Source: Chryseobacterium sp. 52 (GTDB lineage: Bacteria; Bacteroidota; Bacteroidia; Flavobacteriales; Weeksellaceae). From it: 64,000 nt of DNA. The stretch spans positions 434,001-498,000 of the forward strand of contig NZ_PEEX01000001.1 of the NCBI RefSeq assembly GCF_002754245.1, given 5' to 3'. The stretch's first letter is position 1, and each line of letters opens with the position of its first letter. A program made the translations under genes and the position numbers. A model generated the notes under the pieces. That model saw only the letters and a list, made by a program, of their open reading frames with translations. It searched no databases and was not told where the DNA came from. Positions 28,580-49,421 of the stretch are shown here, one piece after another.

Positions 28580-29077
28580 TTATCTTCCGAAATCATCCTG
28601 AACTCTTACGATGTCATCTTCATCCGAAGGATTGGAAGCATCTGTATGCTGCCATATTTCAGCCACTACCCCCCAGCCATCTAAACCAATCAGTCTGTGT
28701 CTCTCGCCCTGCTGAAGTTTGATCTGATCTTTTGGTTTGTATTCTTTCAGTTCACCCTCTTCATCGGTATTGCTTGTTTTGATTCCAACCGTTCCTTCAA
28801 CAACCTGCCAGATTTCGGCTCTGCGGTGATGGTACTGCCAGCTTAACCGGGCATTCGGAGCAACAAGAAGGATTTTAGGGCTTAGTTTACCGCCTATTTT
28901 TAGACTCTCTACATTAATTCCGTCAAAATACTGATTGGCAAAGTCCTGAGCCTGATTTTCATCGATCACGAAAAAACCACCCCAAGGTCTTGTATTATCT
29001 TTTGCTGCAATAGTAAAACCCCGGGTCTCCAGCATTTTTTCTATTTTATCGAATATTTCTGTTTTCTCTGCACTCAT
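28580..29077 (-). CDS. Cupin mannose-6-phosphate isomerase-like protein
   Basis: This 165-residue single-cupin protein matches the isomerase part of type II phosphomannose isomerases: RPWGGFFVID, LLVAPNARLSWQYHHRRAEIWQVVEG and QQGERHRLIGLDGWGVVAEIW. Similar small proteins are often mislabelled phosphoheptose isomerase. The metal ligands would be the two His and Glu of YHHRRAE plus the His of GERHR. It should interconvert mannose-6-phosphate and fructose-6-phosphate. This fits its place as the last gene of a mannose-releasing locus behind a sugar kinase gene. The reaction is inferred from family and context. Confidence 0.75.
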   Translation of the reverse strand: MSAEKTEIFDKIEKMLETRGFTIAAKDNTRPWGGFFVIDENQAQDFANQYFDGINVESLKIGGKLSPKILLVAPNARLSWQYHHRRAEIWQVVEGTVGIKTSNTDEEGELKEYKPKDQIKLQQGERHRLIGLDGWGVVAEIWQHTDASNPSDEDDIVRVQDDFGR

Positions 29078-29127
29078 AATTTATTCCTATTCTAAAATTA
29101 TTTTTCAAATATAAAGTTTGTTAATGA

Positions 29128-31398
29128 TTATTCCTTCGACATTGAATATGGAAAGTCTTTTTCCTGTGAGCCTCTCTCTTTATTGGGCTTACTGTCCATC
29201 TCAAATTCCAAGACCGCTCCTTTCATCAGTTCTTGATGACTAAGCCAGTTTTTCGAGTAAGACCGAAGGTTTACGTTTAATGATTTAACATATAGATTTT
29301 CAGCACTGTTTGCGGGTGCTTTTATTTCAATTTTCTTGCCGTTTTCCAAGTGAATTACTGCTTCTTTAAAAAGCGGTGTTCCCAAAACATACTGATCCGT
29401 TGCCGGCGTTACGGGATAAAATCCTAATGCTGAGAATACATACCAGGCGGAAGTCTGTCCGTTATCTTCATCACCGCAATATCCGTCCGGTGTGGCATAA
29501 TACAGTTTATCCATAACCTGTCTTGTCCAGTATTGTGTTTTGTATGGCGCTCCGGCATAGTTGTAAAGATAAATCATATGCTGAATAGGCTGGTTTCCGT
29601 GTGCATACTGCCCCATATTCATAATCTGCATTTCGCGGATCTCATGAATAACGCTTCCGTAATAACTGTCATCAAATACCGGAGGAAGGGAAAATACCTC
29701 ATCCAGTTTGGCTTCAAATTTCTTTTTACCACCCATTAATTTAGACAAGCCATCAATATCCTGAAAAACAGACCAGGTATAATGCCAGCTGTTTCCTTCT
29801 GTAAAAGCATCGCCCCATTTAAAGGGATTGAATGGTGACTGGAATTTTCCGTCTTTATTTTTACCACGCATCAGACCTGTTTCCGGGTCGAACACATTTT
29901 TGTAGTTGTTGGCTCTTTTTTTATAAATATCAATTTCCGAAGCCGGTTTTCCTAATGCCTTCCCCAATTGATAGATTGCAAAATCATCGTAAGCATATTC
30001 CAGAGTTCGGGCTGCATTTTCATTGATTTTAACATCATAAGGAACGTAGCCTAAAGTATTGTAATATTCTACCCCTCTGCGCCCTACTGCATCAATAGGA
30101 CCTTCATTATTGGCTCCATGTTTTACGGCCTGCCAAAGGGTTTCCACATCATATCCGCGAAGTCCTTTTATATAAGCATCTGCCACTACAGAAGCAGAAT
30201 TATTCCCGATCATAATATCGGAGTAGCCGGGACTGCTCCATTCCGGGAGAAAACCTCCTTCTTTAAAGGTATTGGCTAATCCTTCCTGCATTTCTACATT
30301 GATGCTTGGATACACGAGATTCAGGAAAGGGTACAATGCACGGAAGGTATCCCAAAATCCGGTTCCTGCAAACATTTTCCCATCCAGGATCTTTCCATTG
30401 TAAGGGCTCCAGTGTTTTACTTTGTTCTGGGCATCGATCTCATATAACTTCTGAGGGAAAAATAAGGTTCTGTACAGAGAAGAATACAATGTTCTCATCT
30501 GCTGATCGGTTCCACCTTTAACTTCAATTCTTCCTAAAGTTTTATTCCAGATATTTTTAGCATCTGTTTTTACCTGTTCAAAATTTCTGCCACCAATTTC
30601 TCTTTTCAGATTCAATTCAGCCTGTTCGAAGCTGATGAATGAAGAGGCCGTTCTGGCATAAACGCTTTCTTTATTTTTTAATTTAAATCCAACGATTGCT
30701 CCTGCATGATCGCTTGTAATTTCTAATTGGTTTTTCACAAAGGCAGTATCCTTCCAGGTAGTCGTTAAATCGAAATCTTTATCAAACTGAATGACAAAAT
30801 AGTTTTTGAAGTTATTATATTTCCCTCTTGAATATTTGGTAGTATACCCCAGAATTTTTCTTTCTTTGGGAAGAATTTTGATATAAGAACCTTTATTTAA
30901 AGCATCAATCACAACATAAGCACTGTCTGTTTTTGGAAAATCAAATTTGAAAAAAGCAGCTCTTTCTGTTGGAGTCAATTCTGTTGTTACATTAATATCA
31001 GCGAGATAAACACTGTAGCTGTAAGGCTTTGCATTCTCAGCTTTATGGCTGAACCAGCTTGCACGTTCTTCTTCTTTAAATTTTAGTTTCCCCACTCCCG
31101 GCATAATTGCAAAAGCGCCGTAATCATTCATCCATGGAGATGGTTGGTGGGTCTGTTTGAACCCTTTTATTTTGTCTGCATCGTAGGTATAAGCCCATCC
31201 GTCACCCATTTTTCCGGTTTGCGGTGTCCAGAGATTCATTCCCCAGGGAAGTCCTATAGCCGGATAGGTATTTCCATTCGACAAAGAGGGTTTGGACTGG
31301 GTTCCCATTAAGGGATTTACATAATCTGCAGGAGATATTTCCTGACCCAATGCAAAGATATTGAGTGCAATAAAAAAAGTTGAAAATAAAAACTTCAT
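29128..31398 (-). CDS. GH92 alpha-mannosidase, probably alpha-1,2-specific
   Basis: This 756-residue calcium-dependent exo-alpha-mannosidase has an ordinary signal peptide (MKFLFSTFFIALNIFALGQ), so it is likely periplasmic. GH92 signatures include GxxHQPSPW, GFWDTFRALYP, the catalytic acid Glu534 in FTEGNSWHY, YLYNYAGAPYKTQ and GDEDNGQTSAWYVFSALGFYP, which carries Asp643 and Asp645. It also has His585-Glu586 (VIHEIREM). From memory, this pair in Bacteroides BT3990 marks alpha-1,2-mannosidases. It should trim alpha-1,2-mannose from high-mannose glycans. The start lies 4 bases after the ROK kinase gene, giving tight coupling. Confidence 0.92.
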   Translation of the reverse strand: MKFLFSTFFIALNIFALGQEISPADYVNPLMGTQSKPSLSNGNTYPAIGLPWGMNLWTPQTGKMGDGWAYTYDADKIKGFKQTHQPSPWMNDYGAFAIMPGVGKLKFKEEERASWFSHKAENAKPYSYSVYLADINVTTELTPTERAAFFKFDFPKTDSAYVVIDALNKGSYIKILPKERKILGYTTKYSRGKYNNFKNYFVIQFDKDFDLTTTWKDTAFVKNQLEITSDHAGAIVGFKLKNKESVYARTASSFISFEQAELNLKREIGGRNFEQVKTDAKNIWNKTLGRIEVKGGTDQQMRTLYSSLYRTLFFPQKLYEIDAQNKVKHWSPYNGKILDGKMFAGTGFWDTFRALYPFLNLVYPSINVEMQEGLANTFKEGGFLPEWSSPGYSDIMIGNNSASVVADAYIKGLRGYDVETLWQAVKHGANNEGPIDAVGRRGVEYYNTLGYVPYDVKINENAARTLEYAYDDFAIYQLGKALGKPASEIDIYKKRANNYKNVFDPETGLMRGKNKDGKFQSPFNPFKWGDAFTEGNSWHYTWSVFQDIDGLSKLMGGKKKFEAKLDEVFSLPPVFDDSYYGSVIHEIREMQIMNMGQYAHGNQPIQHMIYLYNYAGAPYKTQYWTRQVMDKLYYATPDGYCGDEDNGQTSAWYVFSALGFYPVTPATDQYVLGTPLFKEAVIHLENGKKIEIKAPANSAENLYVKSLNVNLRSYSKNWLSHQELMKGAVLEFEMDSKPNKERGSQEKDFPYSMSKE

Positions 31399-31402
31399 GA
31401 TA

Positions 31403-32278
31403 TCATTTTGTTAAATTGATTCGGGCTTTCTTCAAGGCATAACCTGCAGCACCGAGAATAGCAGCATCTTCAAAAATAGCTGAAATTTTAATAGGAAGAT
31501 TGATTTTATGCTCTTCCAGATGTTGATTTAACCTCTTTTTAAAGTAAGGATACACTTTTGCAATATTTCCTCCTATTACTAAAACTTCAGGATCATAGTT
31601 TTTGATATATTTTACAATAAATTCTGCAAAAGAATCAGCATAATCGTCAAATATTCTGGCTTGTATTTCTTCCGGTTTGTCTAATAAATCTTTGGTTCCT
31701 GAAATCTGTTCCCCGGTTAAAGCAGCATAATGGTTCACAAACCATCTTGTAGCCAGATAGTCTTCACAGATAGAATCTTTGAAAGGCGAATCCCAAAGGT
31801 CTTCATCCGACGCCACTTCTCCATTGTAAAAAGCTGTTCCCAGGCCTGTTCCCAGGGTTACCCCAAAAATCTTGTTATAATTCTGTACACAGCCTCCAAA
31901 AACTTCTCCTTCCAGAAAAGCTCCGGCATCATTCACAAAATAAATCTGGTCCGTTGAAACGGAAAGCCTTTTTGCTAATTCTTCTTTAATATTGACTTGA
32001 TAGATATCAATAAATTTACCCTGCTGCATGAGCGAAATTCCATTTTCATAATCAAAAGGACCGGGCATTGCTATACCCATCAGAAGATCATCTTTGATAA
32101 GATCACGTGTTACTTTTTCAATGGCCGAAATCCAGGCAGAAAAAATAGCTTCTCTGTTTCCGAAAGAGTCTACATGCTCTCTCACATACGTGGACGTAAT
32201 GATTTCCCGTTTTCCGGGATCAACCTGAGCCATGGTAATATGCGAACCGCCAATATCTATTCCTACTATATTTTGCAT
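31403..32278 (-). CDS. ROK family sugar kinase without the zinc motif
   Basis: This 291-residue cytoplasmic kinase has the ROK phosphate-binding loop IVGIDIGGSHI, the catalytic Asp in FVNDAGAFLEGEVFGG, the GVTLGTGLGTAF loop and the adenosine motif VLVIGGNIAK. The usual ROK zinc site (GH followed by CxCGxxGC) is absent, and the region reads SPFKDSICEDYLATRWF. It probably phosphorylates mannose or GlcNAc released by the surrounding enzymes. Which hexose is not decided by sequence. The GH92 gene follows 4 bases downstream. Confidence 0.85.
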   Translation of the reverse strand: MQNIVGIDIGGSHITMAQVDPGKREIITSTYVREHVDSFGNREAIFSAWISAIEKVTRDLIKDDLLMGIAMPGPFDYENGISLMQQGKFIDIYQVNIKEELAKRLSVSTDQIYFVNDAGAFLEGEVFGGCVQNYNKIFGVTLGTGLGTAFYNGEVASDEDLWDSPFKDSICEDYLATRWFVNHYAALTGEQISGTKDLLDKPEEIQARIFDDYADSFAEFIVKYIKNYDPEVLVIGGNIAKVYPYFKKRLNQHLEEHKINLPIKISAIFEDAAILGAAGYALKKARINLTK

Positions 32279-32316
32279 TATACTTTTGCGTTGTTTTTAG
32301 TCTTTAACCTTAAAAG

Positions 32317-32355
32317 AGACAGACAAGAAAGCTTATTTTCGCTCCCTGTCTGTCT
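32317..32355 (-). terminator. Possible attenuator hairpin within the N-glycan locus
   Basis: AGACAGACA and TGTCTGTCT form a 9-bp stem over a 21-nt loop, followed on the minus strand by CTTTT. It lies between the GH18 gene and the ROK kinase gene. Confidence 0.45.
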
Positions 32356-32411
32356 ACAATAAAATCCCCTAATTTATTTTTACTTTTTATATGCCCACTG
32401 AGGATTATTTT

Positions 32412-34808
32412 TTATTCTACAATCACTTTTCCGGAAGACTGAGTCTTACTGTCTTTTGAATGTATTTTATAGATATAGATTCCTGCCGATAGATTCTGAC
32501 TGCTGATTACCATATCATTTTTATCAATTTTTTTATTAACGATTAATTTTCCTGCCATATCATACAATGTGATGTCACTGGCAGATTTATCTTTGATCGC
32601 AAAATGAATATCATTTCCTTTTTTAACAGGATTTGGATATGCATAATTCACCTGATTTTTTTCCGAAGAAATATCCTGAGTTGACAGTGTCGTACAGGCT
32701 ACATCTGTTCTCCAGTTTGTATTGGTCATTCCGGTCAGAGTTGCAAAGTGGGTATTGGCTGTAGCATCCAAAGCTCCGTTTCCACTGCCTTCATTCATTT
32801 TCCAGTTCGCTTCAAGTGCTGGTGAGTTGGCCGGCACATTACAGTTGTTGGTAAGAATTTCTGTGGCTGTCAATGCTCTTTTCCATACTCTAAATTCGTC
32901 TAAGAATCCATTAAGGGAACGGGCATTTTCATAATTTCTGGCCAGATACAGAATTCCGTTTGCTGTAAAATTACCTGACGCAGGAACACTTGCATCCAGA
33001 ACACCATTGACATAGATCTTCATTGCTGAACCATCATAAGTAGCTGCTATATGATACCATGTATTTGTACTGAATGTTGTAGCGGTGTTAAGCTTTACCT
33101 GGGCAGATCCAAAGCTTAAAATAAACTGTAATTTATTATTAGCCAGATTTCCATCCCCAAATCTCAGAATGGCAGAATTACTGTCACCCACTTCGATCCC
33201 CATTACGGATGAAATATAAGGAAACGCCGTTTTAAATGCATTTACCTTTACCCATCCTTCAAATGTTACTGCATTTCCGCTAATATTGAACTGTCCGGCA
33301 TTCAGATAATGGGTACTTCCATTAAAAGAAAGAGATCTTGCACCGGGACTTTGTACAGGAGCAAACCCACTGTTGAATGTTGCTTCACCTGAATATGAAC
33401 TCGTACTGGTTCCACCACAAACCGCCTGTACTTTCCATACATAGTTTGTATTTTCTGTTAAGCCTGGCAGCGTATATGAATTCGTAGTAATATTCTGAAC
33501 ATCAATCCAGGTCGTTGCTGCAGCTGTTTTATATTGCAGATTATATGAAGATGCACCAGGTACTGTATCCCATGACAATTGAGTTGAAGTTCCTATATAA
33601 TTTCCGGCAGTAAGGCTTGACGGAGTTCCGCATCCACTTCCAGAATTGAACCTTGGCGCAAACAGATATGTACTTTTTATGGTTGCAGAGCAGTTCGACT
33701 GTATTCTCCAGTCATAATCTGTATTTAACGTCAGGTTATTGATGATGATATTACTTCCTGAATAATTATTAGCCACATTGGTCCAGGTCGTTGAATTGGC
33801 AGGTTTATAATCGATATTATAAGTCTGGGAAGCATTGGCTGTCCAGTTTAATTTGGCTGAAATACCTGTAACGTTTGTTACTTCAAGCCCTAAAGGAGGA
33901 TCACAGGCGTCTCCCTGGCTCCATGAATAGAGCTGACCTGTAAGCAATGTATTCTCTGTGTAAAGAATATTGGATCCCGTGCTTAAGTAGCTGGCATTAT
34001 TAGCTCCATTAAGGTCATACCACATAAACACTCCATAACCGTCATTTTTTGTATTGGTTGCCAGATTTGTAAGTATAGATGTGGATGTATTCCCGATCCA
34101 TGTTGCAGCAGCAGAAAGCTTTGCATTGGTAAGGGGCGGTACTACAGGGGCATCATAGGTTCCGTAATATGCATTCCAGCTATAGTTGATATAATTTCCG
34201 GCTGCATCACCATTATAACTCTGTCTTGTCGTCGCAGGTCCTATGTAATAAAACGTAATCAGTTTATCAGGCATGGCCATTTTAAGTTCCTGTAAAAGCA
34301 TTACGAAAGAACTGCTGTTGGGTTGTCCTGTTCCGTTATTTCCGTAACCGGCATATTCATCATCCAGATCAACACCGTCCAGACCGTAAGTATATACGGT
34401 ATGTGCTACCTGCAAAGCAAAGTCTTTTGCCGCCGCTCTGTTAGGAAAATTGGAAATCCCCGCTCCCTGATGATTTCCTAAAAGATCCAGCAATACTTTG
34501 ATCCCTTTTTGCTGTAAAGGTCTCACGTAAGTATTTACATCATTCAATACTTTGGTGACGTTGTTATTATTGGAAATATAAGCTCTGCTTTTGGAAACAT
34601 CATAATTAATATTGGCTGCAAAAATAATAGCCACATCAAAAAGCTGTTTACCGCTGTTTTGCAGGGTATAAGAACCTGCATTCAGCATATTATTGTTATT
34701 CACTTCTACATAGCATATTCCCACAGGATTATTCTGCTGCGCATTAAGTGCGGATGCTGCCTGAATAATCAGCAGGATCAGAGCCGTAAAAATAGATTTG
34801 TTTTTCAT
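32412..34808 (-). CDS. EndoH/EndoF1-like GH18 endoglycosidase with two FN3, LamG and T9SS domains
   Basis: This 798-residue exported enzyme should cut between the two GlcNAc residues of high-mannose N-glycans. It has a signal peptide (1-24), then a GH18 domain (about 27-300) with DGVDLDDE at 144-151 (catalytic Glu151) and the run EYAGYGNNGTGQPNSSSFV, very close to Streptomyces EndoH. Two fibronectin III-like domains (about 303-385 and 392-480), a LamG/concanavalin-like domain (about 490-690, FEGWVKVNAF, WYHIAATYDG, DEFRVWKRAL) and a type A T9SS sorting domain (about 723-798, AYPNPVKKG) follow. It should be secreted or surface-attached. A close paralogue lies immediately upstream. Confidence 0.93.
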   Translation of the reverse strand: MKNKSIFTALILLIIQAASALNAQQNNPVGICYVEVNNNNMLNAGSYTLQNSGKQLFDVAIIFAANINYDVSKSRAYISNNNNVTKVLNDVNTYVRPLQQKGIKVLLDLLGNHQGAGISNFPNRAAAKDFALQVAHTVYTYGLDGVDLDDEYAGYGNNGTGQPNSSSFVMLLQELKMAMPDKLITFYYIGPATTRQSYNGDAAGNYINYSWNAYYGTYDAPVVPPLTNAKLSAAATWIGNTSTSILTNLATNTKNDGYGVFMWYDLNGANNASYLSTGSNILYTENTLLTGQLYSWSQGDACDPPLGLEVTNVTGISAKLNWTANASQTYNIDYKPANSTTWTNVANNYSGSNIIINNLTLNTDYDWRIQSNCSATIKSTYLFAPRFNSGSGCGTPSSLTAGNYIGTSTQLSWDTVPGASSYNLQYKTAAATTWIDVQNITTNSYTLPGLTENTNYVWKVQAVCGGTSTSSYSGEATFNSGFAPVQSPGARSLSFNGSTHYLNAGQFNISGNAVTFEGWVKVNAFKTAFPYISSVMGIEVGDSNSAILRFGDGNLANNKLQFILSFGSAQVKLNTATTFSTNTWYHIAATYDGSAMKIYVNGVLDASVPASGNFTANGILYLARNYENARSLNGFLDEFRVWKRALTATEILTNNCNVPANSPALEANWKMNEGSGNGALDATANTHFATLTGMTNTNWRTDVACTTLSTQDISSEKNQVNYAYPNPVKKGNDIHFAIKDKSASDITLYDMAGKLIVNKKIDKNDMVISSQNLSAGIYIYKIHSKDSKTQSSGKVIVE

Positions 34809-34834
34809 AGTATATTAATTTTAATGGTAGGGAA

Positions 34835-34860
34835 AATCATTGGGCCTAGGCCCAATGATT
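34835..34860 (-). terminator. 26-bp perfect palindrome between the two GH18 genes
   Basis: AATCATTGGGCCT (34835-34847) is followed directly by its exact complement (34848-34860), then TTTT on the minus strand. It lies 6 bases after the upstream GH18 stop and 26 bases before the next start. It can act as a terminator, a processing hairpin or a protein-binding site. Confidence 0.65.
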
Positions 34861-34866
34861 GATTCT

Positions 34867-37017
34867 TTATTTTATAATTAGTTTTTCAGTTTGTTTCAAA
34901 TCTGCATTCTGGGATTCAAATTGAATAATATAATTTCCCATCGAAAGTTTCGACAGATCATATTGATGATCCCCGGCCTGTAATATTTTTGTTTCTGCTA
35001 TCCTTCCATTAAAATTATATATTGTTAATTTTCCTCTGTTATATTCTTCAGGTACAGAAATAGTAAGTGGTGAAGATTGACTTACCGGATTCGGATAAAG
35101 TCTGATCTGTTTTTTAGTGGTTACCTGATCCAGACCTGTTGCTTTTTGGCTTTTTGCATTAGCTGAAACTTTTTGAGTGCCTGCAGGACAAGGTATATCC
35201 GTTCCCCAATTGGAAGCATCGACCCCTGTTAAGGTTAATGTAACTCCGTTCCCAGAAGTATCCTGAACCGACGAACCGCTTCCTTCATTAAATTTCCAAT
35301 AAGCAGCAAGTGAAGTGGCCGGAAATACTACATTACACCTATTCTGACTGATCTCTGTCTGGCTCAATGCCCGTTTCCAAACCCGCACCTCATCTACTTT
35401 ACCATTGAAGTTTCTGGATGTATTGTATAAATACCCTACATTAAATGCTCCGTTGGAAGAAACGTTTCCGGTCTGAGATTTACTGGCATCAAGAGCACCA
35501 TTGATATAAATTTTCATGGCAGCCCCGTCATAGGTTGCTGCAACGTGATACCATGTATTGGCTGTCAATGCCGTAGTAGCCGTCAGCTTTTGCTGTACAT
35601 TATTGATACTTATTACAAACTGGAGCTTGTTATTGGCAATATTAGCGTCTCCCAATCGTAAAAATGCAGAATTGCTGTCACTTACTTCAGTACCCATAAC
35701 AGAGGAAATATAAGGGGATGCAGACTTGAAAGAAGATGGTTTTATCCAGCCTTCAAAGGATAATGCTGAACCGCTTAAATTAAGACTTCCTGCTGACCCG
35801 GATTCGGTGCTTCCATCTAAAGAAAGAGAGCTGGAACCTGTAGGAGTAGTTCCTCCTGTTCCGCTGTTAAATCTTGGGGCAAAAATATAAGTACTTTTCA
35901 CACTGCAGTTCGTTCTGATTCTCCAGTCATATTCAGTATTTGCTGTTAAACCTGATATTGTTACCGAAGTGGAGTTAATAGCCGTTGCAGCGCTTGTCCA
36001 AGTGGTTGCAGAGGCTGGTTTATAATCCACATCATACGTATTGGTTCCTACGGCTGACCAGTTTAATTTCGCACTTGTTCCGGTAAGGTTGCTTGTATAT
36101 AATCCAATCGGGGCATCGCAATTGGTTCCTGCTGTCCATGACTGTAAAGCTGTGCTTAAAACAGTTTGTTCTCCGTATAATGTCTGTGTTCCTGCTGACA
36201 GCTGTGATGTTTCATTGGTTCCGTGAAGATCATACCACATAAACACTCCATATCCGCCGTTCTTGGTCTGGGTAGCCAGGCTGGTGGTGGTAGCGTTTGA
36301 AGTATTTCCCATCCAAACCGCTGCCGGAGAAATCTGTGCATTTGTAAGCGGTGGAACATTCGGTGCGGAGAAAGTTCCGTACATCGCATTCCAGCTGTAG
36401 TTTACATAATCACCTACTCTAAGCCCATTCCAGGAAAGTCTGGAAGCGGCAGGGCCATAATAATAAAATGTAATCATTTTATTCGGCAGTAAAGCTTTTA
36501 ATTCCTGAATAAGCATCACAAAAGAACTGGCATTCGGCTGTCCGGTCCCGTTTTGTCCATAATCCGAATATTCATCATCAAAATCAATTCCGTCGAGACC
36601 ATACGTATTCACCGTTTGGGCAAGCTGCTGTGCAAAGTCTTTGGCTGCTTCACGGCTAGGAAAATTACAAAAACCTGCTCCCTGGTGGTTTCCTAAAATA
36701 GTCAATACCACCTTCATTCCTTTTGCCTGAAGCGGTTTTATGTAGGTATCTGCGTTGGTAAGGACTTTTGTAACGTTATTATTGCAGTACAGATAAGGTC
36801 TGTTTTTAGCGGTATCGTAATTGATATTGGCTGCAAAAATATTGACGACATTAAACAGATACTTGCCTGATGTCTGCAACTTATACGATCCCGCATTCAG
36901 GATGTTGTTATTATTTACTTCTACATAACATATTCCTGTAGGGCTAAGCTGCTGTGCATTCAGCGCAGGAATTGCATGCATGATCAGTAAGATCAATGTG
37001 ATAAAGGCTTTTTTCAT
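34867..37017 (-). CDS. EndoH/EndoF1-like GH18 endoglycosidase with one FN3, LamG and T9SS domains
   Basis: This 716-residue paralogue of the next gene has the same plan but a single FN3 domain. The order is signal peptide (1-22), GH18 domain with DGIDFDDE at 142-149 (catalytic Glu149) and EYSDYGQNGTGQPNASSFV, one FN3 (about 300-380), LamG (about 400-600, FEGWIKPSSF, WYHVAATYDG, DEVRVWKRAL) and a T9SS sorting domain (about 640-716, LYPNPVSQS). The missing FN3 explains the 82-residue length difference. It is probably a T9SS-exported endo-beta-N-acetylglucosaminidase for high-mannose N-glycans. The two copies may differ in glycan or protein-acceptor preference. Confidence 0.92.
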   Translation of the reverse strand: MKKAFITLILLIMHAIPALNAQQLSPTGICYVEVNNNNILNAGSYKLQTSGKYLFNVVNIFAANINYDTAKNRPYLYCNNNVTKVLTNADTYIKPLQAKGMKVVLTILGNHQGAGFCNFPSREAAKDFAQQLAQTVNTYGLDGIDFDDEYSDYGQNGTGQPNASSFVMLIQELKALLPNKMITFYYYGPAASRLSWNGLRVGDYVNYSWNAMYGTFSAPNVPPLTNAQISPAAVWMGNTSNATTTSLATQTKNGGYGVFMWYDLHGTNETSQLSAGTQTLYGEQTVLSTALQSWTAGTNCDAPIGLYTSNLTGTSAKLNWSAVGTNTYDVDYKPASATTWTSAATAINSTSVTISGLTANTEYDWRIRTNCSVKSTYIFAPRFNSGTGGTTPTGSSSLSLDGSTESGSAGSLNLSGSALSFEGWIKPSSFKSASPYISSVMGTEVSDSNSAFLRLGDANIANNKLQFVISINNVQQKLTATTALTANTWYHVAATYDGAAMKIYINGALDASKSQTGNVSSNGAFNVGYLYNTSRNFNGKVDEVRVWKRALSQTEISQNRCNVVFPATSLAAYWKFNEGSGSSVQDTSGNGVTLTLTGVDASNWGTDIPCPAGTQKVSANAKSQKATGLDQVTTKKQIRLYPNPVSQSSPLTISVPEEYNRGKLTIYNFNGRIAETKILQAGDHQYDLSKLSMGNYIIQFESQNADLKQTEKLIIK

Positions 37018-37195
37018 AATGTTTTTTTTAAGTTATTTGATGTATTTATCTCTATACATTTTCTCCTAAAAAGAAGAAAATGGTTAGCTACGGACTAAGA
37101 ATTTCATTGGATTTATCTCAATGAAGTCTTTGTAAAACACTGAACTAAAAAAACGGAAATAAAGGGCATCCTGCCATCTGCTGCAACGATCAATT

Positions 37196-38623: not shown

Positions 38624-38655
38624 TATACTTTTTATTTCGTTAGTTTTTTATTGAT

Positions 38656-40890: not shown

Positions 40891-41019
40891 AATCATAATA
40901 GGGAAATCTTAAAAATTTCTCAATATAGGAGTTTATTCAACAATATAAAAACCGAAACAATGATTTCAACAAGCGAAAAAATAAAGTTGCCCGGCATATT
41001 TAGTATAATTTTAATCCGC

Positions 41020-41991
41020 TTAAAGCGAGTTATTTTTCATAAAATCAATAATCTCAGAAATATATCCAAAGGCAAGAGCAACAGTGGTATCAGCAGCTCC
41101 ATAGTATACAGTAACCTTATCTCCTTCTGACAAAGCAGCACATGGGAAGATGACATTAGGAACATCTCCTGTAAGCTCATACAATTCTGCTGGTGCCAGC
41201 AAATAAGGCTTTGTCCGGTACAATACTTTCGATGGATCTTCAAGGTCAAGCAATGCGGCTCCCATAGAATATCTGAAACCACTGCATGTATTGATCACTC
41301 CATGATAGAAAAGCAGCCAACCTTCATCTGTTTTTATTGGAACCGGGCCTCCTCCTATTTTTGTACATTGCCATGCACTCTCTTCGAAAGGAGCTACTTT
41401 CATTACACAACGGTGCTCGCCCCAGTATTTCATATCAGGGCTGTAACTGATATAAATATCTCCAAAAGGAGTATGCCCATTATCACTTGGACGGCTCAGC
41501 ATGGCATATTTTCCTTCAATCTTTTCAGGAAACAGCACCCCGTTTCTATTAAAGGGTAGAAAAGCATTTTCGCACTGGAAAAATTCTTTAAAATCAAAAG
41601 TATACCCTATCCCAATTGTAGGACCATTATATCCGTTACACCATGTGATCCAGTAACGGTCTTCTATAAAAGCGACACGGGGATCATATTTGTAATCAGA
41701 TTCTATCATCTCAGTATTTCCGGCCTGCATTTCAATAGGATCGTGATTGATCTCCCAATTGACACCATCCTTACTGAAGCCTGCAAAAATATTCATCTGC
41801 ACGGCTTTGTTATCACAACGGAAAACTCCTGCGAATCCATCTTCAAAAGGAACCACTGCGCTATTGAAGATACTGTTGGACGTAGGTATTGCATATCTGT
41901 TAATAATTGGATTTGCAGAGTAACGCCACATGATATCACGGCTGTCTTCCGAACGATCCTGCCAAGGGATCTTTGCTGGTTGAAATGTCAT
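41020..41991 (-). CDS. GH130 mannoside phosphorylase, probably Man-beta-1,4-GlcNAc phosphorylase
   Basis: This 323-residue cytoplasmic enzyme has the five-bladed propeller of GH130: [55 protein letters not shown] (with the proton-donor Asp region), [45 protein letters not shown] and the closing YYGAADT. GH130 members use phosphate to split beta-mannosides into mannose-1-phosphate and a free sugar. With EndoH-like GH18, GH92 and GH125 partners, the expected substrate is Man-beta-1,4-GlcNAc, as for Bacteroides BT1033. There is no signal peptide, so the disaccharide must be imported first. Confidence 0.9.
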
Positions 41992-42033
41992 AAAGTATTT
42001 TTACTTTTTTATTTAATTATTTAATAAATGATT

Positions 42034-43329
42034 TTAGTGTTGTTCTTTCAATTTTTCAGGATATGAAAATGGAACAAGCAGCGTGACAATAAAGGCTGGT
42101 ATCGTAGCAATCAGGACCCAGATAAAGAACATTTTATATCCTATCCAGTCACTGATCATCCCGCTGAACATTCCAGGGATCATTACTCCAAGATTCATAA
42201 TTCCGGTTGCAAACGCATAATGGGCAGTTTTATGTTCACCCGGTGCTATCTGCTGCATGATATACAGCATAAGCCCTACAAAACCAAACCCGTAGCCAAA
42301 ATATTCTACTACGACTGCAATGCCTACCGGAAGAAGTTCGGTTGGCTGGAAGTATGCCAATAATGCATATACTACAAATGGAATATTAAAGGCGGAACAC
42401 AGCCATATGAGAGACCTTTTCAGTCCTCTGGCAGCAATAAAATACCCCGCCAGAACAGATCCCAAAATAAATGCGGCTGAACCGTAAGTCCCGTAAATAA
42501 GTCCAATATCTGATGTCGATAGTCCCAATCCTCCTGAAGTTCGGGGTGCTTTAAAGAATAAGGGTGCTATTTTTATTGCAAATCCCTCCGCAAAACGATA
42601 GAGAATAATAAAAAGAACCGCCCACATAATATTCTTTTTTTTGAAGAAAGAGGTAATTACTTCCAGCAGTTCTTTGCGGATATTTCCTGCTTTTCTTCTT
42701 TCTTTTTGCTCTTCCTGTTTATTTTCTTTTGGTAAAACAGCATAATGATATATTGCCAAAGCAAAAAACAATAGGGCATAAATTCCCATGATGATCATCC
42801 AGGCATTGGCGACTCCTTTTGTTTTTTCCAAGACTCCGGCGAAATACACCAGAACTCCACTGCTGATGATCTTGGCCAGGTTGTAGAAAGCACCCTGCCA
42901 GCCGATATATCTTGCCTGTTCTTTATTGGTTAAAAAATTAATATACGTCCCGTCTGCAGCAATATCATGCGTAGCCCCACAAAATGCAACGACTGCAAAA
43001 AGAGCAATGCTGTATTTGAAAAAATCAGGCAGCGGCAAAGTTAATACGACCAATGCAAATAGAATTCCTATCGCAAACTGGGTAACCACCACAAAGAATT
43101 TCTTCGTTTTATAGATCTCCAGAAAAGGACTCCAAAGTGGTTTTAAGGTCCAGGAAAACATAATGAGAGCGGTCCAGAACGTAATCTTAGAATCTGAAAT
43201 TCCCATATCCTTATACATAATCCCGGAGACCGCATTAATGGTTACAAAGGGAATTCCCATTGCAAAATATAATGTGGAGATCCAGAGGATCGGTTTTACA
43301 GAATGTGTTTCAGACTTATTGTTTTCCAT
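42034..43329 (-). CDS. AmpG-like MFS transporter, probable Man-GlcNAc importer
   Basis: This 431-residue inner-membrane protein has 12 predicted helices and resembles the AmpG branch of the major facilitator superfamily: LYFAMGIPFVTINAVSGIMYKDMG, KPLWSPFLEIYKTKKFFVV and ATHDIAADGTYINFL. AmpG itself imports GlcNAc-anhydro-muropeptides, so uptake of a GlcNAc-ended disaccharide is reasonable. It lies 42 bases before the cytoplasmic GH130 phosphorylase, which needs imported Man-GlcNAc. ATG 43329 is used; the in-frame TTG at 43335 adds only two residues. Confidence 0.85.
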   Translation of the reverse strand: MENNKSETHSVKPILWISTLYFAMGIPFVTINAVSGIMYKDMGISDSKITFWTALIMFSWTLKPLWSPFLEIYKTKKFFVVVTQFAIGILFALVVLTLPLPDFFKYSIALFAVVAFCGATHDIAADGTYINFLTNKEQARYIGWQGAFYNLAKIISSGVLVYFAGVLEKTKGVANAWMIIMGIYALLFFALAIYHYAVLPKENKQEEQKERRKAGNIRKELLEVITSFFKKKNIMWAVLFIILYRFAEGFAIKIAPLFFKAPRTSGGLGLSTSDIGLIYGTYGSAAFILGSVLAGYFIAARGLKRSLIWLCSAFNIPFVVYALLAYFQPTELLPVGIAVVVEYFGYGFGFVGLMLYIMQQIAPGEHKTAHYAFATGIMNLGVMIPGMFSGMISDWIGYKMFFIWVLIATIPAFIVTLLVPFSYPEKLKEQH

Positions 43330-43353
43330 ATTCAAACTAAAATATTAAAGAAA

Positions 43354-43490
43354 AGAGGGCCTCTCAAAAGCATCATTCCGGATTGAAACGAAACTAAAAA
43401 TGAAGAATATTAAACTAACGTATATCTGATACTTCTTCTCTACCGGAATGAAAAAAAACCAAATTAAATCTAACTTTTGAGACGGCCTCT
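43354..43490. mobile_element. MITE-like element with imperfect terminal inverted repeats
   Basis: The left end (43354-43370, AGAGGGCCTCTCAAAAG) and right end (43474-43490) are inverted copies with about 3 differences. A second inner inverted pair, TCATTCCGG (43372-43380) and CCGGAATGA (43443-43451), lies inside. The 137-bp unit has no coding capacity and sits between susD and the MFS gene. The ends resemble IS termini seen in Bacteroidota. No target duplication is obvious, so a large RNA hairpin is the alternative. Confidence 0.45.
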
Positions 43491-43520
43491 ATATCTTTAT
43501 AATTGATGTGCTTAAAATTA

Positions 43521-45158
43521 TTACTTTTTATCCCACCACAGTTTGGTTCCTCCTGTATCAGGACCGCCTAATTGCTGAAGTGCCTGTGCGTAATTAAAAG
43601 TCGAATTTTTGGTGTCATTTGTGAACGGAATTCTTCTAATCATCTGATCTGTATTAATTAATCCGCCACTATCATTTTTTCTGACTTTGAATAAAACAGG
43701 ATATCCTGTTCTTCTTTGTTCAGTCCATGCTTCAGGACCATCCGGATAAAGAGCCAACCATTTTTGAGTTATAATTCTTTCAAGTTTCTTTTCGTTAGAA
43801 TCGCTGTTGTTCCAGGCAATTGTAATAGTACTTAATTGTGAATCTCCGGCTAGAATATTATTATTTGTATTTTTAGGGTCAATATAGGGTGCTTCTGTTG
43901 AAACACTATCCGCAAGATAAGTAGCTACATCCGAACTTTTACCCCATTCCCCAAAAGACTGACTGACACCGGTTTGATAATTCGTTTGTACATCACCTGC
44001 ACCCGAATAACCCCTCAAGGCTGCCTCAGCTTTTAAAAACCAAGTTTCAGCAGCAGTAAATAATTTGAATTTTCCATCTGTGCCAGAAAAATAATCTCCA
44101 CTGGCAGCTCTTGCTGCGGGTTGAGAATAGCCACCATAGGTCGGTTGTCCATTTATTAGATCAATACCTTGACGTATTCCTATATATTGAGGTTGACCAT
44201 TTATAAAGGTTGCCGGATCTTTTGCTGGATTGGCATACGCAGAAAGTCTGGCATCTTTGAAGCCATTCATATAAGCCATTATTGGTGCCCCTATAGAACA
44301 ATCTCCCCACGAATAGATAATAAAACTTAATTCGTGTTGCCCAACATTGATCAAAGCGTTGTCTGCATTATCAGATATTAATCCTGCGGATGAGGCCAGA
44401 GCTTCTTCCGCATACTTTTTTGACTTTGCGGGATCAGCATAACTCATACGCAAAGCAAACCTCAGTTTAAGAGAGTTGGCCAATTTTGCCCATTTGGCTA
44501 TATCTCCACCATAAATCAAATCTGATTTTTTCACAACACTTTTATCTTCTACGTTCTGCGTCGCTGAAGTATTTTGTACTTTTTGCAAATCAGAAACAGC
44601 AATGGTAAGATCATTAATAAAATTGTTGTAAGCGTCCTGCTGAGAATCGAAATCTGTAATACCGTTTGCATTAGGCGTGTCATATTTGCTATACACTACA
44701 GGTCCGTGGCGATCTGAAACTCTTGCCGCTGTAAGGATTTTTAATATTTTTTTAACGGCAAAAGTTGCTGTGAAATCTATCCCCGGATAATTGTTTTTTG
44801 CAGCATTATCAATGATAATAGAATTATTAAAAGTATCCTGCTGTCTTGCAATGATCCTATTGTTCCATCCGTCCATCATTAAATAAGTGAGATTATTTGT
44901 TCCCCCATTAAATTGTGATGCTGTACTAAACATTCCACTAAACATATCTGCATTGAGATTGGTCGCTAACTGATAATCTGCCTGAAAACCTCTTTGTATG
45001 GTTTTCATAGGATCTACAATTGCTTTAAAATCTGCATAAAAATTTTCCGGACTTCCAACTTTTTGCTGATTAAACTCGTCAAAGTCTCCGGTACAACTGG
45101 AGGCAGAAAAAAACACTGCTACTCCAAGTATATAAGTTTTAAAATTAATTATTTTCAT
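43521..45158 (-). CDS. SusD/RagB-type glycan-binding lipoprotein
   Basis: This 545-residue surface lipoprotein has signal residues 1-21 and lipobox Cys22 (FFSASSC). It belongs to the SusD-like branch annotated as nutrient-binding outer-membrane lipoprotein: GDFDEFNQQ near the start, QRGFQADYQLATNLNADMFSGMF, LTAARVSDRHGPVVYSKY, a TPR-like helical middle and the C-terminal KLERIITQKWLALYPDGPEAWTEQRRTGYPVLF. It caps the SusC barrel and holds the glycan. It lies 15 bases after susC, and the substrate (high-mannose N-glycan) is inferred from the locus. Confidence 0.92.
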   Translation of the reverse strand: MKIINFKTYILGVAVFFSASSCTGDFDEFNQQKVGSPENFYADFKAIVDPMKTIQRGFQADYQLATNLNADMFSGMFSTASQFNGGTNNLTYLMMDGWNNRIIARQQDTFNNSIIIDNAAKNNYPGIDFTATFAVKKILKILTAARVSDRHGPVVYSKYDTPNANGITDFDSQQDAYNNFINDLTIAVSDLQKVQNTSATQNVEDKSVVKKSDLIYGGDIAKWAKLANSLKLRFALRMSYADPAKSKKYAEEALASSAGLISDNADNALINVGQHELSFIIYSWGDCSIGAPIMAYMNGFKDARLSAYANPAKDPATFINGQPQYIGIRQGIDLINGQPTYGGYSQPAARAASGDYFSGTDGKFKLFTAAETWFLKAEAALRGYSGAGDVQTNYQTGVSQSFGEWGKSSDVATYLADSVSTEAPYIDPKNTNNNILAGDSQLSTITIAWNNSDSNEKKLERIITQKWLALYPDGPEAWTEQRRTGYPVLFKVRKNDSGGLINTDQMIRRIPFTNDTKNSTFNYAQALQQLGGPDTGGTKLWWDKK

Positions 45159-45173
45159 TTTAGTATTGTCTAT

Positions 45174-48134
45174 TTAGAAGTTAGCTTTTAATGATAATCC
45201 GATAGATCTGGTAATTGGTATACCAAAAGAATCCACTCCTACACCACCAGGTGTATTTCCTGAAACCTGTTCAGGATCAAACGGTGCTTTTTTATAAAAG
45301 AAAAATAGATTTGTTCCCACTATACTTACAGTTGCGCTTCTCAGGTAGCTAGAGTTAACATCAAAAGTATATGCTATAGATGCCTGGCGCAGTCTTACAG
45401 TTGTTGCACTATATATATACGCTTCATCAATTCCTGCTCCTTCCTGGTTCGCTCCTACAGCTTTATAATAAACTTTAGCATCGGTTAACCCGGTGTACGC
45501 CGCTCCTGCATTAGGAGTTCCTGGCGCATATACAGCATTCGGGATAGATACTCCGCCTGCATCCCTGGCAGAAGCGCTTGTCTGGCTTACCCCAAGCATA
45601 TCATTTGCTTTTTCTGTAAGAGATAGAACTTTACCCCCAAACTTTCCATCAATCAGAAAAGAAATTCCCAATTTTCCAATATTAAAAGAGTTGTTAAACC
45701 CTAACATAAATTTAGGATTCGGATTCCCTAAATAACCAAGGTTTTTATCTGCCAAAGGCTTTCCATCAGCATCAACCAGAATTCTCCCCTGGTCATCTCT
45801 CAGGAATTTAATCCCATAGATATCCCCGAAAGACCCGCCCAATTTAAGCTTTGTATAAGCACCACCTCCAGTAAGTGCAAGAAGTTGATTTTCCGGAACC
45901 TTTAACCTATCTGGAAACAATTCTACAATTTTGTTTTTGTTTGTAGACCCATTTAAACTAGCCGTCCAGCCTAATTTTTCTGAATTTAATATTTTATAGG
46001 ATAGGGAAGATTCAAAACCTGTATTTTGTATTTTTCCAGCATTTACATAATAGGAACCAGATGGCAAACCTCCTAAATTAGAGGAGATAGTAACCGGCAG
46101 AAGCTGGTTGGTCGCTTTTGAATTGTAATAGGTGATATCAAAACTTAAACGGTTTTTAAACAATCTTAATTCAGTACCAGCTTCAAAAGTCTTATTGAGT
46201 TCCGGCTTTACAAATAATTCACTGAAAGCAGGATCTGTCACAAGTGAATATTTAGGATATAAAATCTGACCGGCATCCACAATATATCCGTAAGCAGTAT
46301 TATATGGAGATGTTGCAGTTGTTAAATTTGCTGGTAATCCTAATCCTACTGTAGCATAAGATCCTCTTATTTTCCAAAAGCTAATGGTTTCAGGTAGTTT
46401 AAAGATGGAGGATAATACAGCATTAGCACCTACAGATTCATAATCGTACCCATTAGTTCCTGTTAAAGCCAAACTAGAATCCCAATCATTTCTAAAGGTC
46501 ATATCTACATAAAACATATTTTTGTACCCCAAAGACGCGCTTGCAAAAACGGATTGTATTTGTTTTTTAGTACTGTAATATAAATTATGAAACCCATCTC
46601 CTACGCTTCTATCTACATTCCATTGCAGATTACTGACTGTAAACAGATTCGGAGCTGACAAATAGGCATTATCAATTTCTGTAACTGTATTTCTTGAGGT
46701 ATTGATACTTCCACCCACTGTAAAATCTAATGAAATATCTTCGCTCAATTTTGGACTTCCTACTAATAAGACATCGCCATAAGTAGAAGAGTTTTCATAT
46801 TTGTTCTGAAGAAGCCTGCCATTAATTCCGCTACTCGTTATAAGATTTGGATCTGAATATGCTGAAACTCCTCTTTGACTATCTGTAACATTCCAACTAT
46901 AATTCCCTCTTACCCTTGCAGATAACCATGGGTTGATTTGATATGCCAGAGATAAAGCACTATACGTGTTTTTGTTATTGACAGTAACTTTATTTCTGTT
47001 TAATATCCAGTAAGGATTTTGTGTGGCAGGATTTCCGTTGAATTTTCCGTCCGGTCCTATAGCCCACCAGTTTTGAGCAGGTAATAATCTCGTTTTGTCT
47101 ATAAAAGAATAGTTACTATCATTATATTGATCAAAATCTACTCCTCTGGGTAACCAATATAAACTGACTAAAGGAGAAAAAGAAACACCGGGAGTCTGTC
47201 TGTTGACACTATTCTGCAAAGAACCAATAAAATTAGCATCCAACGTTAATTTATCATTCAGGTATTTACTGGAATTCCTAAAAGAGATATTGTATTGATC
47301 GAAATAAGAAGAAGGAACAATCCCTTTATTAGTGGTATTCCCTATTGAGAAATAATTCGTTGATTTTTCTGTTCCTGACTCGAAAGAAAGGCTATTAACC
47401 CATGTTGTTCCATTCTGTAGAAAATCTTTCAGGTGATCCTTAGAAGCACCTTTTGCTCCCCAGCTTTCATTGGAAATACCAGGGGCTTGGCCAGAAACTG
47501 CAGGATCATAAGAAAGATAGCTATGTTGCAGCTTGGGAAGACTATATGCCTGATCTACCGTCAGACTGGTGTTATAACTTATAGAACTTCTACCCAGTTT
47601 TCCTTTCTTAGTTGTAATCAGGATAACTCCATTACCCCCCATAGAACCATAAAGAGCTGAAGCAGAAGCCCCTTTTAAGAAGTTCATGCTTTCAATATCA
47701 TCTGGATTGATGGAGCTTAAAACATCTCCTGCATCAGGCATTGTAGAATATTGGCTGGCCTCAGGAGCCTTTCCAACTCCGTTAATAATAGGGATACCAT
47801 CTATTACATATAGCGGCTGACTACTGTTGGCAGATTTATTCCCTCTCATCAAAACCCTAACCGAACTTCCCACACCGTTAGTTCTATTGATCTGTACGTT
47901 GGAAACTTTTCCACTGATAGAGTTTAAAAAATTGGGCGTTTTCACTTCCGTCAATTCATCTCCACCAATCTGCTGGCTGGAGTACGTAAGAGAGCGGGCC
48001 TGCCTTTTGATCCCCAAAGAGGTTACAACCACCTCTTCAATTTTGGTTGTATTAGCAGTATCTGCTTTTTTAGTTTCCTGTGCGTAAGCAGATAAAGAAA
48101 AAACTAATAAAACCGGTATAACAGTTTTTCTCAT
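45174..48134 (-). CDS. SusC-type TonB-dependent transporter without carboxypeptidase-like domain
   Basis: This 986-residue outer-membrane transporter carries oligosaccharides with SusD. After the signal peptide (MRKTVIPVLLVFSLSAYAQ) and a short linker, a TonB-box-like region KIEEVVVTSLGIKRQ leads straight into the plug (LNSISGKVSNVQINR, SSVRVLMRGNKS, PLYVIDGIPI, GASASALYGSMGGNGVILITTKKG). The CarboxypepD_reg-like domain that usually precedes the plug in SusC proteins is missing. The barrel ends in LKANF. ATG 48134 gives the clean signal peptide; a longer reading to 48197 adds 21 residues. The substrate is inferred from neighbours. Confidence 0.93.
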   Translation of the reverse strand: MRKTVIPVLLVFSLSAYAQETKKADTANTTKIEEVVVTSLGIKRQARSLTYSSQQIGGDELTEVKTPNFLNSISGKVSNVQINRTNGVGSSVRVLMRGNKSANSSQPLYVIDGIPIINGVGKAPEASQYSTMPDAGDVLSSINPDDIESMNFLKGASASALYGSMGGNGVILITTKKGKLGRSSISYNTSLTVDQAYSLPKLQHSYLSYDPAVSGQAPGISNESWGAKGASKDHLKDFLQNGTTWVNSLSFESGTEKSTNYFSIGNTTNKGIVPSSYFDQYNISFRNSSKYLNDKLTLDANFIGSLQNSVNRQTPGVSFSPLVSLYWLPRGVDFDQYNDSNYSFIDKTRLLPAQNWWAIGPDGKFNGNPATQNPYWILNRNKVTVNNKNTYSALSLAYQINPWLSARVRGNYSWNVTDSQRGVSAYSDPNLITSSGINGRLLQNKYENSSTYGDVLLVGSPKLSEDISLDFTVGGSINTSRNTVTEIDNAYLSAPNLFTVSNLQWNVDRSVGDGFHNLYYSTKKQIQSVFASASLGYKNMFYVDMTFRNDWDSSLALTGTNGYDYESVGANAVLSSIFKLPETISFWKIRGSYATVGLGLPANLTTATSPYNTAYGYIVDAGQILYPKYSLVTDPAFSELFVKPELNKTFEAGTELRLFKNRLSFDITYYNSKATNQLLPVTISSNLGGLPSGSYYVNAGKIQNTGFESSLSYKILNSEKLGWTASLNGSTNKNKIVELFPDRLKVPENQLLALTGGGAYTKLKLGGSFGDIYGIKFLRDDQGRILVDADGKPLADKNLGYLGNPNPKFMLGFNNSFNIGKLGISFLIDGKFGGKVLSLTEKANDMLGVSQTSASARDAGGVSIPNAVYAPGTPNAGAAYTGLTDAKVYYKAVGANQEGAGIDEAYIYSATTVRLRQASIAYTFDVNSSYLRSATVSIVGTNLFFFYKKAPFDPEQVSGNTPGGVGVDSFGIPITRSIGLSLKANF

Positions 48135-48542
48135 AAGGTTTAGTTTTATTAAGATTTGTTTGAGAATCAACCACATCACTTTAAATACTATTAACAATTA
48201 TAAAACACAACTAATCTTCTTTTTTCTGCAACATTATGTTCTATATGCAATAAATAATTAAAGTTTTGTTAAGATTTAATTCATATTAGCAAATCTAAAT
48301 TTTGTTAACAGTCAGATATAATGCTATTTTATCATAAAACGATATTATTTTTTCAGGTATTTTTAAAACACTGGATTTACGCCCTGATTTGCAGTACAGT
48401 ACAGGGATTTCCTACTTATTAATTTACATAACACTTTTTTAACATTTTTTGATTAAAATGCATGTGATATTCACAAAAAAATCCGGATAAAGCTATCCGG
48501 ATATTGAAAATATTAAAAGGTATCTCTTTAATATTAAAAGAG
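48135..48542 (-). promoter_or_regulatory. Regulatory gap upstream of susC
   Basis: This 408-base stretch has no gene. On the minus strand a TAGATTTG -7-like box lies at 48297-48290, without a good -33 TTG, which would give a leader of about 150 nt. Short direct repeats CAGTA-CAGTA-CAGG at 48392-48405, flanked by CCCTG and CAGGG, are candidate activator half-sites. The araC terminator occupies 48473-48502, and an AT-rich palindrome lies near 48524-48542. Activation by the AraC protein is inferred. Confidence 0.4.
48473..48502 (-). terminator. Terminator of the araC gene
   Basis: ATCCGGATA and TATCCGGAT form a 9-bp perfect stem over a 4-nt loop, followed by seven T on the minus strand. It separates the regulator transcript from susC. 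Confidence 0.85.
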
Positions 48543-49421
48543 TTATTCTATTTTTTTTACGCCTTTAAAAAGTTCTTTAAATTCAGTAGGTGTTGTTTTC
48601 TTAATGGATTTAAAAACCTTGTTGAAATTGGCTATATTATTAAAACCAGCCTCAAAAGCGGTTTCAAAAACTGTCAGATTCTTCTCCATCAGCCACCGCG
48701 CAGCATAACTGATCCTTATTTCGTTCAGATAATTCACAAATGTCTTCCCTGTCCTTTTTTTGATAAATCGGTTAAAGGTCACACTGCTCATATTGATCAG
48801 CGAAGCAGCATCATGGAGTGTTATTTTATTTTCAAAATTCTTGTGGACAAAATCATGAACAATCTTCATTCTGTCATTATCCGCAAAGGTTTCAAGTTCT
48901 ATACTATAGGAGGATAACAGGGTTTTATCTTCTGCAATGGCCAGCTCATTAAGAATCTTCATAATTTCAATGAAAGACTCAAAACTGTTCATTTTAGATA
49001 GATTGAAGAAAGAATCTTTCAGTTTTTCAGCAGTTTCCTGCGAGAACAAAATTCCCCGAATAGAGTCCTTCATCAGATTGCTGATGGGTTTCAGAATATT
49101 TTTATCCATCATAGACTGATTAAAAAAATCCTGATTGAACTGTACCGTAATCTCATGGGTCTTCCTGTTTTTGCATTTGTGATTGGCCCAGCAGTGCGGC
49201 AGATTAGGACCTACCAATACCAGCTCAATATCCCCGATCTCTCCGGTATGATCACCAATCATTCTCCGGTATCCCTTTCCTTTACTTATAAAATTGATCT
49301 CGATTTCCGGATGATAATGGTAGGGAAAATCAAAGGATGCCTTTATCCGGTCAAACACAAGAAAACTGTCCTCGGGAGATAATGGAGTTATTTCTCTCAA
49401 AATATTTTCTAGCTTGCTCAT
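48543..49421 (-). CDS. AraC-family regulator of the N-glycan locus
   Basis: This 292-residue regulator has an N-terminal cupin sensor (FDFPYHYHPEIEINFISKGKGYR, GDIELVLVGPNLPHCWANH) and a C-terminal double helix-turn-helix (about 190-290; ITLHDAASLINMSSVTFNRFIKKRTGKTFVNYLNEIR, VFETAFEAGFNNIANFNKVFKSIKKTTPTEFK). The cupin probably binds a sugar from the pathway. It is the first gene on the strand of the locus, with its own terminator before susC. Many Bacteroidota glycan loci use hybrid two-component or sigma/anti-sigma pairs instead, neither of which is present here. Confidence 0.88.
   Translation of the reverse strand: MSKLENILREITPLSPEDSFLVFDRIKASFDFPYHYHPEIEINFISKGKGYRRMIGDHTGEIGDIELVLVGPNLPHCWANHKCKNRKTHEITVQFNQDFFNQSMMDKNILKPISNLMKDSIRGILFSQETAEKLKDSFFNLSKMNSFESFIEIMKILNELAIAEDKTLLSSYSIELETFADNDRMKIVHDFVHKNFENKITLHDAASLINMSSVTFNRFIKKRTGKTFVNYLNEIRISYAARWLMEKNLTVFETAFEAGFNNIANFNKVFKSIKKTTPTEFKELFKGVKKIE

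Follow-up and report, generated by a model that had tools for sequence, protein, structure and literature searches.

A predicted high-mannose N-glycan utilization locus of Chryseobacterium with an altered GH92 catalytic site and exchanged SusC/SusD transporters

Gene content and predicted pathway

We analysed a 64,000-nucleotide stretch of the Chryseobacterium sp. 52 genome (assembly GCF_002754245.1, contig NZ_PEEX01000001.1, forward-strand positions 434,001 to 498,000), hereafter the window. The whole genome is 5.30 Mb in one contig. Twelve genes of the window, all on the minus strand between 28580 and 49421, very probably constitute a polysaccharide utilization locus (PUL) for high-mannose N-glycans. 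A first-pass annotation of the DNA had proposed this function. It is still the best reading, judging from the protein families, two enzymes of EndoH type, a glycoside hydrolase family 92 (GH92) enzyme of BT3990 type and a conserved gene order. N-glycan PULs as such are already known. What is new is the assembly of this one, its regulator, the presence of core steps within the locus, and a GH92 protein with a switched catalytic acid.

The first-pass annotation listed twelve same-strand genes of named families, with nothing unrelated among them. Both points were borne out. All twelve open reading frames (ORFs) lie where they had been placed, every assignment is backed by Pfam or NCBIfam matches, and scanning ORFs and families revealed no other gene inside the block. 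The carbohydrate-active enzymes (CAZymes) and SusD exceed curated family cut-offs. Adjacent SusC and SusD genes are thus accompanied by CAZymes and a regulator, the arrangement that defines a PUL. The closest named loci are from Chryseobacterium; for instance, the GH125 protein is 96% identical to that of C. antibioticum.

The best known counterpart is PUL72 of Bacteroides thetaiotaomicron (BT3983-BT3994 region), which also combines SusC/SusD, a high-mannose GH18, an alpha-1,2 GH92 of BT3990 type and periplasmic trimming. By sequence, its high-mannose-specific GH18 has two counterparts here. These are GH18b (34867..37017; Fn3, LamG) and GH18a (32412..34808; two Fn3, LamG), both ending in a type A sorting tail of the type IX secretion system (T9SS). 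They match the Endoglyc_H equivalog NF045482 at 402 and 378 bits, respectively (cut-off 300), and the T9SS sorting domain TIGR04183 at 54 and 36 bits (cut-off 23). The matches support the earlier suggestion of T9SS-exported, EndoH-like endoglycosidases. Both proteins are closer to the solved EndoH than to EndoF1, a Bacteroidota enzyme: 306 versus 145 bits for GH18b and 288 versus 149 bits for GH18a. The catalytic regions align, with DGIDFDDE in GH18b, and DGVDLDDE in GH18a opposite DGVDFDDE of EndoH. The locus enzymes differ from the Streptomyces EndoH in their added Fn3, LamG and sorting domains, and in occurring as a pair of adjacent paralogues. In public annotation, such Chryseobacterium proteins are already called endo-beta-N-acetylglucosaminidase H. 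Between the two genes, at 34835-34860, is an 11-bp hairpin, AATCATTGGGC-CTAG-GCCCAATGATT, that could tune their relative expression.

GH92b (29128..31398) corresponds, by sequence, to the alpha-1,2-mannosidase BT3990. It scores 1111 bits against that structure (2wvx), keeps the acid E534, and is 62% identical to the PUL72-type enzyme in two Bacteroides genomes. Its HGNQP motif had suggested a glutamine acid, and thus an odd GH92; this idea was dropped, since BT3990 shares the motif and GH92b retains the true acid. GH125 (37196..38623; PF06824, 572 bits) is of the exo-alpha-1,6-mannosidase type, and its solved relatives include 3p2c (596 bits) and BT3781 (2p0v, 582 bits). GH130 (41020..41991; PF04041) is likely a Man-beta-1,4-GlcNAc phosphorylase, since its closest relative among solved structures, by sequence, is the mannoside phosphorylase Uhgb_MP (4udg, 493 bits).

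The remaining genes have more general labels. SusC (45174..48197) is a TonB-dependent transporter with a TonB plug (PF07715). SusD (43521..45158; PF12741, 472.6 bits) is a lipoprotein with, by eye, the lipobox SASSC. The major facilitator superfamily (MFS) protein (42034..43335; PF07690), a putative Man-GlcNAc importer, resembles AmpG but scores below the AmpG cut-off (TIGR00901, 142 bits against 350). Judged by eye, the true starts of susC and the MFS gene are probably Met codons further inside the listed ORFs, which begin at TTG. The ROK sugar kinase (31403..32278; PF00480, 58 bits), predicted to act on mannose and/or N-acetylglucosamine (GlcNAc), is a generic assignment with weak matches to solved ROK kinases. 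Such kinases usually carry a cysteine zinc motif, which the locus protein lacks. The last gene (28580..29077; PF01050, 43.4 bits, cut-off 23.6) encodes a short cupin protein, a type II mannose-6-phosphate isomerase (MannoseP_isomer). Inspection by eye found SpI-type leaders on both GH92 and both GH18 proteins, and a twin-arginine (Tat-like) leader, RRKFIK, on GH125; GH130, ROK and the isomerase showed none.

From these features we infer a route, including its substrates, locations and order of reactions. The two secreted EndoH-type enzymes would cut glycoproteins between the two core GlcNAc residues, and SusC/SusD would import the released Man(n)GlcNAc. Periplasmic trimming would follow, with GH92b removing alpha-1,2-mannose and GH125 alpha-1,6-mannose; alpha-1,3-mannose would most likely be removed by a second GH92, GH92a, despite its altered catalytic site. 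The AmpG-like carrier would move Man-beta-1,4-GlcNAc into the cytoplasm, for phosphorolysis by GH130 to Man-1-P and GlcNAc. Free mannose would become fructose-6-P via the ROK kinase and the cupin isomerase.

The arrangement is widely conserved. We fetched 70 loci by their GH125 gene, and 65 of them, from Chryseobacterium (63), Epilithonimonas (1) and Soonwooa (1), are the related loci counted below. Note that, because GH125 was used for fetching, co-occurrence of genes is conditional on it. SusC, SusD, MFS, GH130, GH92a and GH125 are complete and in the same order in 65/65, and this conservation is therefore more than chance. ROK and GH92b are found in 64; one Chryseobacterium locus (L023) lacks both and keeps the rest. 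GH18 is present in two copies in 44 loci, in one copy in 19 and absent from 2. The isomerase was found in 59, the other six stretches ending within or just after GH92b.

A GH92 protein with an altered catalytic site

GH92a (38656..40896) has a signal peptide, the GH92 fold and the general base of the family (D651), but not the general acid. Serine (S548) is found where glutamate is expected (E533 of BT3990). Two further changes, at nearby positions that are otherwise invariant, are Asn to Asp in the GNEP/GNQP motif (D608) and Gly to Asn (N648). The same three differences separate GH92a from BT3130, an alpha-1,3-mannosidase according to PMC12858847, and from 7zgm, which acts on alpha-1,3 linkages of plant N-glycans. 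The first-pass annotation had taken this GH92, beside GH130, for an ordinary mannosidase, and that description does not fit a protein without the family's general acid.

The Ser/Asp/Asn triple is kept in all 65 related loci, and serine occurs in all 67 rows read. Among the matches listed, the 120 nearest homologues have serine (112), threonine (7) or alanine (1) at the acid position; comparison GH92 sequences have glutamate in 24/24. Outside the locus, the genome encodes two further GH92 proteins, both with glutamate. Independently of the GH125-based sampling, a search of 320 genomes from the family to which the window belongs (by inference, Weeksellaceae) gave a GH92a orthologue in 99, counting by hand the rows of at least 798 bits. 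The next matches in that search are 47-49% identical. Copies of BT3991 type, assigned from gene order in two PUL72-like Bacteroides loci, are 38-39% identical to GH92a.

How might such a protein work? Tentatively, and with slightly more doubt than confidence, we propose that GH92a represents an uncharacterised GH92 subfamily, present in several Bacteroidota lineages, with a rebuilt site. It would be a mannosyl-phosphate diesterase or, alternatively, an inverting mannosidase whose acid has been relocated, and would perform the N-glycan step done by an ordinary GH92 in Bacteroides. We found no characterised member of the acid-less group in the literature.

The diesterase option can be extended to the locus as a whole. 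Fungal mannoprotein N-glycans with mannosyl-phosphate caps would then be the target, and GH92a would hydrolyse Man-1-phosphate diesters, with a leaving group that needs no acid, in the manner of CcMan5. CcMan5 itself reportedly has Gln instead of Glu as its acid, according to work by Tiels in 2012. In the comparison with GH92 structures, CcMan5 scores lower than the others. Loss of the acid with retention of the base throughout the 120 homologues would suit such chemistry, and the GH92 enzyme CcMan5 does act on mannosyl phosphodiesters (PMC5930347). We regard this account of the locus as unlikely.

Still less likely is the view that GH92a is non-catalytic, or a scaffold, with the alpha-1,3 step performed by another GH92 of the genome. 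Absence of the acid from every row read, together with the two glutamate-bearing genes elsewhere, would allow it. Furthermore, when characterised GH92 enzymes lose the acid by mutation, activity is abolished or greatly reduced (PMC12858847, PMC10167667). Conversely, BT3990 acid variants keep some activity (PMC10167667), and conservation of GH92a also speaks against this view. An alignment of 52 sequences has 94 invariant columns, including the base D651, W361, D362 and R365. The acid change and the two further positions are strictly co-substituted, and pairwise identity across loci is 74-99%.

More distant relatives were also noted. A search for the context of such homologues, in 395 genomes of the class, returned only the Chryseobacterium sp. 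52 genome at E <= 1e-210. Plasmid pPP7 of Persicobacter psychrovividus encodes a GH92 with the S-D-N-D signature (L148, 18001-20283); because no other CAZyme is annotated within 18 kb, the context gives no function. A Bacteroides genome (G006, L181) has a GH92 with glutamine at the acid position (NNGLY[Q]GTRW). This gene, in two pieces of one frame, is possibly CcMan5-like.

Transporter exchange and the likely susC promoter region

SusC and SusD have been swapped between species as one cassette, while the flanking locus is conserved. The cassette, mature SusC plus SusD, spans 43700..48000 on the minus strand, with boundaries known to approximately 200 bp. At 85% identity, 63 SusC sequences (62 loci and the window, coverage at least 85%; three loci were dropped) fall into 10 allele classes, and class sizes for 64 SusD sequences are nearly the same. 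Across 1830 pairs, which are not independent, identities correlate at 0.97 for SusC and SusD, at 0.46 for SusC and GH125, and at 0.87 for MFS and GH125. In 532 pairs, GH125 identity is 93% or higher; SusC is below 70% in 104 of them, and MFS is at least 80% in every one.

Nucleotide comparisons locate the cassette's edges. We hand-picked seven loci to show both kinds of relationship to the window. In five (L005, L006, L010, L012 and L014), identity is 71-92% upstream, drops near 48000 to 53-75% inside the cassette, and recovers near 43700 to 78-93%. In the other two (L009 and L058), which share the window's allele class, the cassette stays at 84-96%, which is higher than in most of the flank downstream. 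Mapped onto a FastTree tree built from four neighbouring proteins (62 rows), the 10 SusC classes need 13 changes against a minimum of 9; 22 of the tree's 59 inner branches are open, and the count has no shuffle control. A precedent is ragAB of Porphyromonas gingivalis, a SusCD-type pair with four divergent, horizontally exchanged alleles (PMC11817032). The Chryseobacterium exchange is similar in kind but spans many species, involves 10 classes and occurs inside an otherwise conserved glycan PUL.

The gene at the head of the locus (48543..49421) encodes an AraC-family regulator with a cupin-like sensor and HTH_18 (PF12833/PF02311). Its tail is in 53 of the 65 fetched stretches. Of the remaining 12 genomes, 11 have a close AraC match (87-99%) at the stretch end or no more than 1 kb from it, and one has no match. 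Hence, AraC is at this place in 64/65 loci, 11 of them judged from coordinates. A second AraC-family gene (49680-50546) lies beside it in divergent orientation.

The predicted target of the AraC protein is a conserved block that precedes susC (48256..48353, minus strand), the likely promoter region with a candidate AraC site. In 64 sequences (63 loci and the window), 76 of its 98 positions are kept in at least 95%, compared with 6/187 and 6/58 in the flanks; the block's limits were set after the profile was viewed. Bacteroidetes promoters have a -7 box, TAnnTTTG. The sequence TAGATTTG at 48297-48290, with each position kept at 98-100%, fits this box and is likely the -7 element. The candidate AraC site is a pair of TTAACAAAA copies at 48308-48300 and 48272-48264. 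Support for this pair is weaker: in the upstream copy, the first three bases are kept in only 41-50%. The block as a whole is strongly kept across species even though the susC downstream of it is replaced.

A terminator-like hairpin (48481..48502, minus strand), with a 9-bp stem and a T run, separates araC from susC. Because it follows araC, that gene is probably its own transcript. The region scanned contains 20 terminator-like sites, compared with 13.2 +/- 3.7 in shuffles, so one such site by itself says little. Scanning the window for Rfam families and tRNAs gave no matches. Adjoining the locus, on the opposite strand, is a TonB-dependent receptor gene with a heavy-metal-associated (HMA) domain (25635-28325), and a response regulator is encoded in the same region (23801-24487).

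Standing of the N-glycan reading and its meaning

Several observations weigh against a high-mannose N-glycan PUL. GH92a, the only alpha-1,3 candidate in the locus, lacks the general acid, and AnGH92A is inactive when the equivalent Glu is replaced by Gln or Ala (PMC12858847). Two related loci have no GH18. Apart from GH92b, the locus enzymes are only 30-40% identical to their PUL72-like counterparts. The natural substrate could just as well be fungal mannoprotein. Finally, searches of the genome found no NagA (best 24.7 bits, cut-off 225.65) and no NagB (best 58.2 bits, cut-off 236.9) above the cut-offs. Since these models pass in only 7 and 4 of 14 control genomes, respectively, divergent proteins could be missed; the search covered these two enzymes among the possible GlcNAc routes. 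The weak NagB match, an ORF beside zwf, looks like a 6-phosphogluconolactonase and was set aside. Furthermore, Man-1-P needs a mutase encoded outside the locus, and two phosphohexomutases are present elsewhere in the genome. Hence, the original claim of a candidate for every step down to glycolysis does not stand.

That the locus instead serves yeast alpha-mannan is very improbable: alpha-mannan systems can also contain GH92 and GH125, as in a Salegentibacter operon where these stand beside a GH76 (PMC10154615), but the locus has no GH76 or GH99 endo-mannanase. Instead it has a pair of EndoH-type enzymes, and its GH130 is nearest to Uhgb_MP.

The N-glycan reading, set against PUL72, brings out what differs. 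PUL72 is controlled by an extracytoplasmic function (ECF) sigma/anti-sigma pair (PMC11180146), whereas no sigma factor family occurs among the twelve genes here. The contrast with Bacteroides that the first-pass annotation drew from AraC is upheld by the regulator's conservation. The GH18 enzymes are EndoH-type T9SS proteins, not of the BT3987 type. GH92a replaces the BT3991 and BT3994 types, all of which have Glu in the two PUL72-like Bacteroides loci. With only GH92a and GH92b in the locus, the alpha-1,6 GH92 of BT3994 type has no counterpart, and GH125 is present instead. PUL72 also leaves a trisaccharide to enzymes encoded elsewhere (PMC11180146).

Beta-mannosidase is a further case. Its absence, with phosphorolysis in its place, had been put forward as distinctive. 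GH130 does take its place in the locus, but the route is not novel: a review names GH130, together with GH2 and GH5_18, as a family for the Man-beta-1,4-GlcNAc linkage (PMC10154615). Among the papers listed by our open-access search, judged by titles and the starts of abstracts and with most subscription papers outside it, none dealt with this locus, with any high-mannose PUL of Chryseobacterium or with GH92 proteins without the general acid. Phosphorolysis of core Man-beta-1,4-GlcNAc is a known route, reportedly described by Nihira in 2013, and BT1033 is another GH130 mannoside phosphorylase.

The locus would extend high-mannose N-glycan foraging to Chryseobacterium, and places candidates for the last core steps, GH125 and GH130, in one locus. 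For the final core alpha-1,6-mannose, a 2022 paper states that no enzyme was known (PMC9522356), and a 2023 review points to GH38 enzymes of Bifidobacterium longum (PMC10154615). GH125 is an in-locus, testable candidate for this step. With its triple switch, GH92a makes it possible to test directly how a GH92 functions when the general acid is missing. The exchange of SusC and SusD in an otherwise fixed locus makes it possible to ask what drives transporter diversity: substrate, phage or immunity.
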